In this document: positions 52,007-56,220 of the stretch, one piece after another
Layout of the letters: each line of letters opens with the position of its first letter
Numbering within the stretch: position 1 is the first letter of the stretch
NCBI RefSeq assembly: GCF_020731145.1
Contig: NZ_JAJFZN010000003.1
Coordinates: 496,001 to 560,000 of the forward strand
DNA from: Sneathiella sp. HT1-7
GTDB lineage: Bacteria > Pseudomonadota > Alphaproteobacteria > Sneathiellales > Sneathiellaceae
DNA length: 64,000 nt
Direction: 5' to 3'
Position numbers and translations under genes: made by a program
The notes under the pieces: model-generated
What the model was told of the DNA's origin: nothing
The model's input: only the letters and a program-made list of their open reading frames with translations
The model's database searches: none

Positions 52007-53614
52007 GTGATCAAGCCAACGCTTGCCGCCGTTACCGGCCTGTTTTCTGCCGGACGCAACAGCGCTGACCCTATTCGGTTTACGCCGGGCCGGATCAAGA
52101 CCGAACTGCTGTCCGGTCTGACTGTCGCCCTCGCCCTGGTGCCGGAGGCTGTGGCCTTCGCCTTTGTCGCGGGTGTGCATCCGCTCGTCGGACTTTATGC
52201 GGCCTTTATCGTCGGGCTGGTGACGGCGCTGATCGGCGGCCGTCCGGGAATGATCTCCGGCGCGACCGGCGCGCTGGCCGTTGTCATGGTCTCCCTCGTC
52301 GCATTACATGGGGTGGAGTATCTCTTCGCGACTGTCGTGCTGATGGGCATATTGCAGATTTTGGCAGGGGTGTTCCGCCTCGGGAAATTTATCCGGCTGG
52401 TGCCACATCCGGTGATGCTTGGCTTTGTGAACGGTCTTGCCATTGTGATTTTCATGGCGCAGCTAACCCAGTTCAAGACGGTCGATACTTATGGCGAGAT
52501 TGTCTGGATGACAGGCTTGCCGCTTATCATCATGCTGGGCCTTGTGGCCGCGACCATGACGATCATCTGGTTGATGCCGAAGGTAACAAAAGCCATTCCG
52601 GCGCCACTAGCCGGCATTGCTGTCATCGCCGGGATCGTGATTTTCTTTGGCATTGATGTGCCGCGTGTCGGCGATCTGGCCTCCATCAAGGGCGGCCTTC
52701 CGGAATTTCATATCCCGATGGTACCGATTAATCTGGAAACCCTGAAAATTATCTTCCCCTTCGCCCTGATCCTTGCGGCGATTGGCCTGATCGAGAGCTT
52801 GTTGACCCTCAACCTCGTCGGTGAGATTACCGAACAGAGCGGCGGCGCGTCGCAGGAATGTGTGGCGCAAGGCCTCTCCAACACGATTACCGGATTTTTC
52901 GGCGGAATGGGGGGCTGTGCCATGATCGGGCAGTCGATGATCAATATGAAATCGGGCGGGCGCACGCGCCTTTCGGGCATCGCCTCGGCGCTCTTTCTGC
53001 TTGCCTTCATCCTTTTCGCCTCCCCAATGATAGAGCAGATTCCGCTTGCCGCGCTTGTTGGCGTGATGTTCATGGTGGTGATCGGGACGTTTGCGTGGCA
53101 GAGCTTGCGGATCATGCGGATCATTCCGCTCTCCGATACGCTGGTTATTATTCTTGTGACTGCGGTGACGGTTTTAAGCGATCTGGCCGTTGCGGTTGTC
53201 GTAGGCGTTATTGTCTCGGCGCTGGTCTATGCGTGGAACAACGCGCGGCGCATTCATGCTATCTCGGAAATTAATGAGGATGGCGCGAAGGTCTATAAGA
53301 TCGAGGGGCCGCTCTTCTTTGGTTCCACCGATGGCTTTGCGGAGATTTTTGACATCAAGGGTGATCCCGACCTAGTCATTGTCGACTTTATGAACAGCCG
53401 GGTGGTGGATCAGTCGGCCTTGCAGGCGATTGAGGTGTTGGCGTCGAAATACAACGCGGTCGGCAAGCATATCCAGCTTCGCCATCTGTCGCGCGACTGT
53501 CACCGTTTGCTGAACCGTGCCGGGCAGTTGATGGTTGATTCCGATGACGATCCCAATTATGGCGTTGCCGTCAACTATTCGGTCAAGACAGGAATATTGG
53601 GCGGGAATCACTAG
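52007..53614 (+). CDS. SulP-family anion (sulfate/bicarbonate) transporter with STAS domain
   Basis: This 535-residue protein has about twelve to fourteen membrane helices in residues 35-430 (ELLSGLTVALALVPEAVAFA is the SulP signature, then HPLVGLYAAFIVGLVTALIGG). A STAS domain follows at about 435-535 (KVYKIEGPLFFGSTDGFAEI and VIVDFMNSRVVDQSALQAIE). Members exchange or co-transport sulfate, bicarbonate or dicarboxylates. It uses a GTG start at 52007 without a clear ribosome-binding site, so a nearby alternative start is possible. It stands alone before the dehalogenase-like gene (77-base gap). Confidence 0.9.
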   Translation: MIKPTLAAVTGLFSAGRNSADPIRFTPGRIKTELLSGLTVALALVPEAVAFAFVAGVHPLVGLYAAFIVGLVTALIGGRPGMISGATGALAVVMVSLVALHGVEYLFATVVLMGILQILAGVFRLGKFIRLVPHPVMLGFVNGLAIVIFMAQLTQFKTVDTYGEIVWMTGLPLIIMLGLVAATMTIIWLMPKVTKAIPAPLAGIAVIAGIVIFFGIDVPRVGDLASIKGGLPEFHIPMVPINLETLKIIFPFALILAAIGLIESLLTLNLVGEITEQSGGASQECVAQGLSNTITGFFGGMGGCAMIGQSMINMKSGGRTRLSGIASALFLLAFILFASPMIEQIPLAALVGVMFMVVIGTFAWQSLRIMRIIPLSDTLVIILVTAVTVLSDLAVAVVVGVIVSALVYAWNNARRIHAISEINEDGAKVYKIEGPLFFGSTDGFAEIFDIKGDPDLVIVDFMNSRVVDQSALQAIEVLASKYNAVGKHIQLRHLSRDCHRLLNRAGQLMVDSDDDPNYGVAVNYSVKTGILGGNH

Positions 53615-53691: not shown

Positions 53692-54423
53692 ATGCTGAAC
53701 AATAAAATCATCCTGATCACTGATGCGCTGCATTTTCTGGGCAAGACGGGCAGCCGTGTCATGACGGCAGAGGGCGCAACGGTTTATGCGCAGGACGAAG
53801 CCTTTACTGATGCCGCGACGCGCGCAGAGTTCGAAGCGGACATTCCGGGCACGAAAGCCCTTGCCGAGCAGGACCCCACGGAGATTGTCGATAAGATCAT
53901 CGCCACCGAGGGGCGGATCGATGTGATGATCAATAACGACGCGTTTCCTGCGCTGAAGGCGTCCATTGATGAGGCGGATATCGGGGACTTCCGCCGGACG
54001 GTTGAGAACCTGATGGTGCGCGGCTTTCATTTTGCGAAGGAAGCCTCAAAACATATGAAGAAGGCGGGGCAGGGGAAAATCCTGTTTATTTCATCCGCCG
54101 CGCCAAAAAACGGCATTCCCAACTACTCCATGTATGTGGCGGCGCGGGGCGGGACAAATGCCCTTGCGCAGACCCTCGCCAAGGAACTCGGGCGATATAA
54201 TATTCAGGTGAACGCGCTGGCACCTAATTTCGTTGAAAGCCCGGATTATTTCCCGAAAGAACTGCTGGAGAATGAGGCCGCGTTCAAGAAGATCACCTCA
54301 CAAATTCCCTTGGGCCGTCTCGGCACGCAGGAAGAGGCGGGCGACTACCTTCTCTTTCTCGCTTCCGACAAATCAAACTTCATTACCGGGCAGGTGCTCT
54401 ATTTCGCGGGCGGCTGGGCGTAA
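53692..54423 (+). CDS. Probable halohydrin dehalogenase (SDR fold)
   Basis: This 243-residue protein has the short-chain dehydrogenase fold but not the dehydrogenase chemistry. The NAD glycine motif is replaced by TDALHFLG (T10, F15, G17), which fits the halohydrin dehalogenase motif T-x4-F/Y-x-G. The catalytic residues fit S-x12-Y-x3-R: S135, Y148 and R152, with Arg where dehydrogenases have Lys. Segments such as YAQDEAF, INNDAF, AKELGRYNIQV and GRLGTQEEAG also recall HheC as I remember it. Halohydrin dehalogenases close vicinal halohydrins to epoxides with release of halide, and reverse this with azide or cyanide. The start at 53692 matches the family N-terminus. It is alone, beside SulP and purEK. 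Activity is inferred. Confidence 0.8.
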   Translation: MLNNKIILITDALHFLGKTGSRVMTAEGATVYAQDEAFTDAATRAEFEADIPGTKALAEQDPTEIVDKIIATEGRIDVMINNDAFPALKASIDEADIGDFRRTVENLMVRGFHFAKEASKHMKKAGQGKILFISSAAPKNGIPNYSMYVAARGGTNALAQTLAKELGRYNIQVNALAPNFVESPDYFPKELLENEAAFKKITSQIPLGRLGTQEEAGDYLLFLASDKSNFITGQVLYFAGGWA

Positions 54424-54425
54424 CT

Positions 54426-55514
54426 TTACGCTTTCGGCTTCTGGGTGAGGGGCATCAGGCGGGTGACATGGCCCATCTTGCGGCCCTCCCGCGCTTCCTT
54501 TTTGCCATAGAGATGCAGGCTGTTCTCAGGGTCCTCCAACAGGGTGCCCCAAGCCTCGATCTCGTCACCGATAAGGTTTTTCATCACTGCGTTTGAATGG
54601 CGGGCAGGATCACCGAGAGGAAGGCCGCAGACGGCGCGGATGGCCTGTCGATACTGGCTGGTGGCGCATCCCTCAATCGTCCAATGACCGGAGTTATGTG
54701 GCCGGGGGGCCAGTTCGTTGACGAGGATCTGGTTATCCTGTGTGACGAACATTTCCACCGCCATCAGCCCGATAAGCTCAATTTTCGTGGCAATTCTCTC
54801 GGCCATCTCGATGGCTTTTTCGGCAAGCCAGTCCGGGATATCGGCGGGCGCGAGCGTGACATCGAGAATGTGGTTCTTGTGCCGGTTCTCCACCGGGCAA
54901 AAGGCGGCGGTTTCCCCCGCCGGGTTGCGTGCAACGATAACGGAGACTTCCATCTTGAAATTGACACGCCCCTCAAGAATGGAGGGGGTGTCCTTCATCT
55001 CGGCCCAGACCTTATCGAGATCGCTGGCGCCGGTGATCTTCACCTGTCCCTTGCCATCATAACCGAGCCGGCGGGTCTTCAGGATCGCCGGGGCCTTGAT
55101 CTGCTTGACCGCCTGGATCAGTTCCTCCATGGATTCCACATTCGCGAAGGTCGCCGTACCGATGCCGATATTGTTGATGAAGCTCTTTTCGAATAATCTG
55201 TCCTGCGTGATTTCCAGCACTTTTGCGCCCGGGCGGACCGGCACGACCTTGCTCAGGAATTCGACTGTATCGGTCGGGATATTCTCAAACTCCAGCGTAA
55301 CCACATCCACGCTTTTGGCAAAGGCGGTGAGGGCCTCCTGATCGCTGTAGCTGGCGACGGTAGAGCGATGGCTGACCTGCGCGGCGGGGCTGTCCTCCTC
55401 CGGGCCGAAGACATGAACGAAATAGCCCATCTCAGCGGCGGCAATGGCCATCATGCGGCCAAGCTGTCCGTCTCCCAGAATGCCTATATGTCCACCGGGT
55501 GCAACTGTTGTCAT
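54426..55514 (-). CDS. purK: N5-carboxyaminoimidazole ribonucleotide synthase
   Basis: This 362-residue ATP-grasp enzyme carboxylates 5-aminoimidazole ribonucleotide with bicarbonate and ATP in purine synthesis. It starts MTTVAPGGHIGILGDGQLGR, and has LKTRRLGYDGKGQ near 146-158 (ATP-grasp lysine), EVSVIVARN, LVNELAPRPHNSGHWT near 267-282 and the TSQYRQAIRAVCG segment. The start at 55514 is chosen because it is the conserved N-terminus; earlier in-frame starts lie inside purE. It follows purE by 16 bases in one operon. Its 3' end lies 2 bases from the convergent dehalogenase-like gene. Confidence 0.94.
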   Translation of the reverse strand: MTTVAPGGHIGILGDGQLGRMMAIAAAEMGYFVHVFGPEEDSPAAQVSHRSTVASYSDQEALTAFAKSVDVVTLEFENIPTDTVEFLSKVVPVRPGAKVLEITQDRLFEKSFINNIGIGTATFANVESMEELIQAVKQIKAPAILKTRRLGYDGKGQVKITGASDLDKVWAEMKDTPSILEGRVNFKMEVSVIVARNPAGETAAFCPVENRHKNHILDVTLAPADIPDWLAEKAIEMAERIATKIELIGLMAVEMFVTQDNQILVNELAPRPHNSGHWTIEGCATSQYRQAIRAVCGLPLGDPARHSNAVMKNLIGDEIEAWGTLLEDPENSLHLYGKKEAREGRKMGHVTRLMPLTQKPKA

Positions 55515-55530
55515 TTTTACTATTATGCCT

Positions 55531-56019
55531 CTATTTGGGCTCGTCGGCCACGGCTTCGGTTTGTCGCATGCGCCAGTCATTGACGGCCGTCGCATAGGCG
55601 TCGTTTTCAAGGGCGAGGATTTGCCCGGCCAGCAGTGCGGCATTGATCGCGCCCGCCTTACCAATGGCGAGGGTGCCGACGGGCACGCCGCCGGGCATCT
55701 GGACGATGGAGAGAAGGCTGTCCATGCCTTTCAGCGATTTGCTTTCGATTGGGACACCAAGAACGGGAAGCGCCGTCATGGAGGCCGCCATGCCCGGAAG
55801 ATGCGCCGCGCCGCCGGCGCCGGCGATAATCACTTTCAGGCCGCGCGCCGCGGCATGGGTTGCATATTCATAGAGACGGTCCGGCGTCCGGTGTGCCGAG
55901 ACGATTTTAGACTCGAACGGAATTCCCAGCGTTTCCAGCGTGTCGGCGGCATTCTTCATGGTTTCCCAGTCAGACTGGCTGCCCATGATAATCCCGACTT
56001 CTGCTTCCCGGTTGGTCAT
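55531..56019 (-). CDS. purE: N5-carboxyaminoimidazole ribonucleotide mutase
   Basis: This 162-residue enzyme (class I PurE) moves the carboxyl group of N5-CAIR to carbon 4 of the imidazole. [13 protein letters not shown] near residues 9-21, [15 protein letters not shown] and [15 protein letters not shown] are the family signatures, with the serine and histidine of the active site present. The start at 56019 follows AGGGAAG at good spacing; a GTG nine bases earlier is less likely. It is first in the purEK operon. Confidence 0.95.
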
Positions 56020-56220
56020 AGATTGCACTTCCCTGTTGTGACCTTGACGGTTTGAAGCAGGCGATTATAGGCATGCCGGCCAAAGACGCAAGTGAAGGTT
56101 GCTGTCATTTCAGGCGGGACGTGCATTTGCAGCGAAAGCGGCGGAACACTTTGAGTTCTCAGTTAAATTGTTATACAGTTCCGCCTAAATAAATCACCTA
56201 TGAAGGGCAAGGGAGAAGTC

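Follow-up and report, generated by a model that had tools for sequence, protein, structure and literature searches.

Does the gene at 53692-54423 (+ strand) of the window, by which we mean the whole analysed stretch of 64,000 nucleotides from Sneathiella sp. HT1-7, encode one more SDR-type dehydrogenase, or does it encode a halohydrin dehalogenase (HHDH) on the same fold? An earlier note on this DNA had favoured the second answer. The frame is open from the ATG at 53692 to the stop codon that ends at 54423 and encodes an SDR-fold protein of 243 amino acids (P0001), whose start methionine is aligned in all Sneathiella orthologues covering that end. We judged its HHDH-type character by the sequence and its motifs, by structural relatives, by profiles and by a tree.

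Fingerprint motifs and kinship of the protein

The published fingerprints of HHDHs are T-x4-F/Y-x-G and S-x12-Y-x3-R (PMC4989007, PMC11976700). In the cited part of the 2016 review, the first is described as the nucleophile pocket that replaces the glycine-rich NAD loop and the second as the catalytic triad (PMC4989007). P0001 carries both in an SDR-like protein, exactly as had been claimed: motif 1 occupies codons 10-17 (53719..53742, + strand; T10, F15 and G17) and motif 2 occupies codons 135-152 (54094..54147, + strand), with Ser135, Tyr148 and Arg152 as the predicted catalytic residues by homology. In place of the classical SDR signatures TGxxxGxG and Y-x3-K, the protein thus has T-x4-F-x-G and Y-x3-R. 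When P0001 was aligned with 20 Sneathiella orthologues and one orthologue from a sister genus, S135, Y148 and R152 were invariant in all 22 rows, and T10, F15 and G17 were conserved in each of the 21 rows that extend over motif 1. A further segment, Pro-Asn-Phe at codons 178-180 (54223..54231, + strand), has an equivalent in the HheC structure which we take to be part of the halide site.

The SDR paralogues of the same genome served as a control. These are 45 SDR-type frames, 44 of them distinct after the partial duplicate L150_1 was dropped. Motif 2 occurs in none of the 44, the motif-1 pattern occurs somewhere in the frame in one, and no paralogue has both. The single positions follow the same line: the paralogues have Gly at position 11 in 41/44 cases (Asp in P0001), Gly at position 15 in 38/44 and Phe or Tyr there in none (Phe in P0001), Ala at position 83 in 36/44 and never Asp (D83 in P0001), Tyr at position 148 in 36/44, Lys at position 152 in 40/44 and Arg in three (Arg in P0001), and Gly at position 179 in 38/44 and never Asn (N179 in P0001). 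Positions 83 and 179 mark two more segments that serve the cofactor in SDRs. The description of plain SDRs in the earlier note, with a glycine loop and a final lysine, is borne out by the counts at positions 15 and 152. The three paralogues with Arg at 152 (L131, L138 and L147) have neither Tyr at 148 nor motif 1. L138, which lies outside the window (G000:C5:561300-562900), is a degenerate SDR paralogue without the catalytic Tyr-x3-Lys.

General annotation stays at the level of the fold. Pfam and NCBIfam label P0001 merely as SDR in the families listed, and an HHDH model is absent among the NCBIfam families listed for it (25 of 206). The AlphaFold prediction for P0001 and seven orthologues (8 rows) reached a mean pLDDT of 58.3, and such a single-chain model is too poor for judging the pocket or the HHDH architecture, a homotetramer whose halide pocket takes the place of the NAD pocket. 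Promoter and terminator scans gave counts at chance level.

The ten best matches of P0001 among solved structures all carry the label of a dehalogenase, a halohydrin dehalogenase or a halohydrin epoxidase, with E values from 1.2e-67 to 9.5e-39 (1.2e-67 for 6a41, 3.7e-43 for HheC and 6.3e-40 for HheA2). The first match without such a label is a ketoacyl-ACP reductase at 3.4e-29. The structure 7wkq, labelled halohydrin dehalogenase, ranks 20th, with several plain SDRs above it, and the best 60 matches listed do not include HheB; labels and kinship therefore diverge in parts of the HHDH family, which is known for such diversity (PMC4989007, in the part cited).

The profile contest gave the result that an HHDH predicts: P0001 scores 278.6 bits with a profile of five HHDH structure chains and 155.8 bits with one built from the SDR paralogues. 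For the paralogous frames themselves (45, of which 44 distinct) the preference is reversed, by 147.6 bits or more, partly because the SDR profile was made from these frames, and the 32 relatives found outside Sneathiella favour the HHDH profile by at least 85.2 bits.

In a tree of 60 rows, 57 HHDH rows are split from 3 SDR rows with support of 100/99, and 20 Sneathiella rows form one clade (100/97). The Sneathiella proteins lie with HheA2, HheC and 6a41 on one branch (95/96), while HheB and 7b73 lie on the other (100/99). Several inner forks of the first branch are left open and long branches are flagged there, so that a grouping with subtype A can be read only as a place on the A/C side (95/96). 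The references of the tree lack HheE, HheF and HheG; also left out are the partial HHDHs L084 and L117, three tandem partners, two truncated SDRs and PDB 8xxb, and the SDR loci L007 and L008 lie outside the sampled rows as well.

Structure matches, tree and profiles all place P0001 closer to the verified HHDHs than to plain SDRs. Together with the motifs they agree on the HHDH-type identity that had been proposed, and 53692-54423 very probably encodes a halohydrin dehalogenase, an enzyme predicted from its sequence. The Sneathiella gene is thus a predicted additional member of the known HHDH family, recognised with the motif test published for this family. A search of the literature found no paper on an HHDH of Sneathiella, and a Sneathiella sequence may already figure among the motif-mined genes.

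Locus, distribution and inheritance

The surroundings of the gene are as first reported, with a SulP gene upstream and purK downstream, and with purE recognised from its sequence and place. The SulP-family anion permease with a STAS domain (52007..53614, + strand) ends 77 bp upstream of the HHDH gene. Convergent with it, 2 bp past its stop codon, lies purK (54426..55514, - strand; start chosen from the conserved MTTVAPGG), and purE (55531..56028, - strand) was named from sequence and its position beside purK. This convergence with purK recurs in every one of the 21 Sneathiella loci; the two genes are 45 bp or less apart in 20 of them and about 2.1 kb apart in one. The upstream neighbour belongs to the SulP cluster in 9 loci and to the COQ9 cluster in 10 (in the one example on which Pfam was run, a peptide deformylase precedes), is another gene in one, and is replaced by a contig end in one. 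The SulP adjacency is treated here as context, from which a functional link to the putative HHDH does not follow.

No dehalogenation operon was recognised beside the gene in the Sneathiella loci, and the neighbours scanned give no pathway. Outside Sneathiella, 168 neighbour proteins were listed, and Pfam results for a selection of 20 likewise give mixed families and no shared pathway: XdhC with a MobA-like protein, an acyl-CoA dehydrogenase and BrkB are among them, two related loci each have a plain SDR, and seven proteins are without a family. Elsewhere in the host genome (3.83 Mb, 11 contigs), one predicted type II haloacid dehalogenase passes the curated cut-off (G000:C4:871723-872307), as is the case in 2 of 14 control genomes; it would be a weak sign of organohalide metabolism. 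A search for two epoxide hydrolase families, PF06441 and the limonene type (PF07858), found neither in the genome.

The close relatives of the host genome in the named collection all belong to this alphaproteobacterial genus: Sneathiella chungangensis, at 94% protein identity, S. sedimenti, S. litorea and MAGs of Sneathiella. A close profile (E <= 1e-60) has a match in 38 genomes, five of them Sneathiella, of a class-wide sample of 385, and in 2 of 398 genomes of a phylum sample, namely the host genome and another of the same class. The frequency therefore depends strongly on how the genomes are drawn, and in the 398-genome phylum sample the close HHDH type was not seen outside the class. The statement in the earlier note that the family is small and known from few bacteria does not agree with the class count, nor with the dozens of motif-found genes in the cited part of the 2016 review: 37 new genes were found by motifs and 26 more later, and the 19 enzymes chosen for expression were all confirmed as truly active (PMC4989007). 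The same note had presented the chromosomal copy as a new member. Its place among the HHDHs stands; it is not peculiar to the host, since 22 of the 25 genomes of the host's family, which make up the whole order sample, have the gene.

The gene lies beside purK in 21 of the 24 Sneathiella genomes examined. The other three have no match at 1e-40, and their best matches are ordinary SDR-like proteins at 1.7e-27 or weaker; the gene is thus common but not universal in the genus. One of the three (G014, 65% complete) has an apparent empty site (L127, 1501-4079): purK there directly adjoins a SulP gene of 82.6% identity, and the HHDH gene is missing between the two. In another (G024, 98% complete, 580 contigs), the 290 bases past purK contain no HHDH piece, so it counts as lacking the gene beside purK. 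In the third (G020, 91% complete) purK was not found and the site was therefore not seen.

Pairwise comparison of P0001 with 8 of the 20 Sneathiella orthologues gave dN/dS values of 0.04-0.12 at dS of 0.75-1.93. Plasmids gave no match at 1e-40, and two scans of viral contigs gave 5 and 29 pattern matches, not one of which codes for a relative. Given the purK convergence in all 21 loci, the low dN/dS and the missing plasmid match, the gene looks vertically kept. Additionally, rows of one family mostly stand together in the tree, which fits the expectation for largely vertical inheritance; the exception is the sister-genus protein L085, whose position beside Sneathiella is left open. Most members of this marine genus thus seem to have long kept the predicted HHDH gene on their chromosome, and such a degree of settlement is mildly unexpected in comparison with the first members of the family, which came from enrichment strains.

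Relatives beyond the genus show where the motifs vary. Outside Sneathiella, 33 genomes of the class had a match; the comparison covered 32 of these (all but G282) and, in addition, G001. All 32 full-length relatives have motif 2, and 26 have the published motif 1; the deviants have Trp at the aromatic place (three), or Ser (two) or Ile (one) at the Thr place. The Trp variants, T-x4-W-x-G, belong to one family group, f40 (L088:8001-8732, L096:4576-5310 and L097:7998-8732), in which L089 has Phe at this place. Since the published pattern allows F or Y at this place, a search based on it would overlook these genes. The Thr place is changed in L102:7998-8729, L108:3788-4504 and L111:8001-8729, two of which read S-x4-F-x-G and the third Ile. 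In three fetched genomes of group f97 (L111:7266-8729, L112:7995-9467 and L116:7995-9475), a motif-2 HHDH-like gene stands in tandem with a paralogue in which the catalytic Arg is changed to Gln (S-x12-Y-x3-Q); the motif-1 aromatic residue is lost in the two paralogues with a full start. Such tandems could perhaps encode a pair of an active and an inactive subunit.

Proposed chemistry, role and alternatives

We consider it highly probable that the gene encodes a cofactor-independent HHDH of the HheA2/HheC/6a41 branch that works by an HheC-type mechanism and is kept by selection in Sneathiella. The mechanism described for HheC in the cited part of the review (PMC4989007) was the source for the residue roles, which are assigned by homology. 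Ser135 would hold and orient the hydroxyl of the substrate, and Tyr148, made more acidic by Arg152, would take the hydroxyl proton. The resulting alkoxide would attack the neighbouring carbon and displace the halide, giving an epoxide. The halide would leave into a pocket derived from the former NAD site, formed by the Thr10/Phe15/Gly17 loop and Pro-Asn-Phe 178-180, and in the reverse reaction the epoxide would be opened by small anions. No cofactor would be needed, and cofactor-free dehalogenation and epoxide chemistry by a Ser-Tyr-Arg triad is likely.

In its marine setting Sneathiella would most likely use the enzyme to clear haloalcohols of natural origin or reactive epoxides, with the natural substrate being speculative. 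HHDHs are valued biocatalysts whose natural role, in the cited part of one account, is only presumed to be detoxification and degradation of natural haloalcohols (PMC11536340). That Sneathiella and other alphaproteobacterial lineages keep the HHDH as an ordinary, vertically inherited enzyme with a native marine halohydrin or epoxide role is a possibility that we put forward tentatively and with some doubt.

The same chemistry could serve another purpose: the natural job might be the opening of endogenous or environmental epoxides with a non-halide anion, dehalogenation being a side activity. The nucleophile range of HHDHs is wide (PMC4989007), HheC has probably been assayed on substrates other than its natural ones (PMC11976700), both in the parts cited, and the gene is kept by the genus with no recognised dehalogenation operon alongside. 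However, the loci hint at no particular nucleophile or epoxide, and even SulP stands upstream in only 9 of 21, so that we regard this purpose as unlikely.

Far less probable is an NAD(P)-dependent SDR dehydrogenase with drifted cofactor motifs. The SDR fold assigned by Pfam and NCBIfam and the identity of about 28-32% to the best-matching SDRs of the same genome would fit it, but the glycine loop and the NNAG, catalytic Lys and PG segments are jointly replaced by HHDH-type residues, these replacements are conserved in the orthologues, and both the profile contest and the tree favour an HHDH. We give equally little credence to the recent acquisition of a gene for the breakdown of man-made haloalcohols, comparable to HheA, HheB and HheC of enrichment strains. 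Such strains did yield the first HHDHs (PMC4989007, in the part cited), and the gene is missing in two or three Sneathiella genomes; against this stand the genus clade with its 100/97 support, the constant place beside purK, high synonymous divergence with low dN in all eight pairs, and the outcome of the plasmid and viral scans. An HHDH kept by the genus thus continues to be the preferred reading. The copies in 21 of 24 Sneathiella genomes offer natural variants that can be screened, and deleting the gene in this genus could reveal its native role, an opportunity not obviously given by the first members with their origin in enrichment strains. If the HHDH is indeed an ordinary, vertically inherited enzyme with a native marine role, the natural function of HHDHs becomes testable by knockout in a marine genus that is non-pathogenic.

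Comparison with known halohydrin dehalogenases

HheB (4zd6) and 7b73 share the HHDH-type Ser-Tyr-Arg triad with P0001; they differ from it by their separate branch (100/99, as opposed to 95/96 for the A/C side) and by identities of 26.3% and 31.4%, respectively. We take 7b73 to be HheD2, although its structure label itself is just SDR. HheA2 (1zmo) resembles P0001 in its similar length, in both motifs and in 35.4% identity, but in the tree it is closest to two rows from family f34 and not to Sneathiella. HheC of Agrobacterium radiobacter AD1 (1pwx) is alike in the motifs, the triad order and the Pro-Asn-aromatic segment, with 36.8% identity. In contrast to P0001, which ends at GGWA, it has a C-terminal extension with Trp249 (PMC4989007, in the part cited), and it carries two insertions, 3 and 4 residues long, close to positions 181 and 192. 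The closest likeness is to 6a41, labelled 'dehalogenase', for which our literature search found no account of an assay: it has 47.5% identity over 242 gap-free positions, both motifs and a length of 244 residues versus 243. It differs from P0001 in its place in the tree, where it groups with another alphaproteobacterial family (f66).
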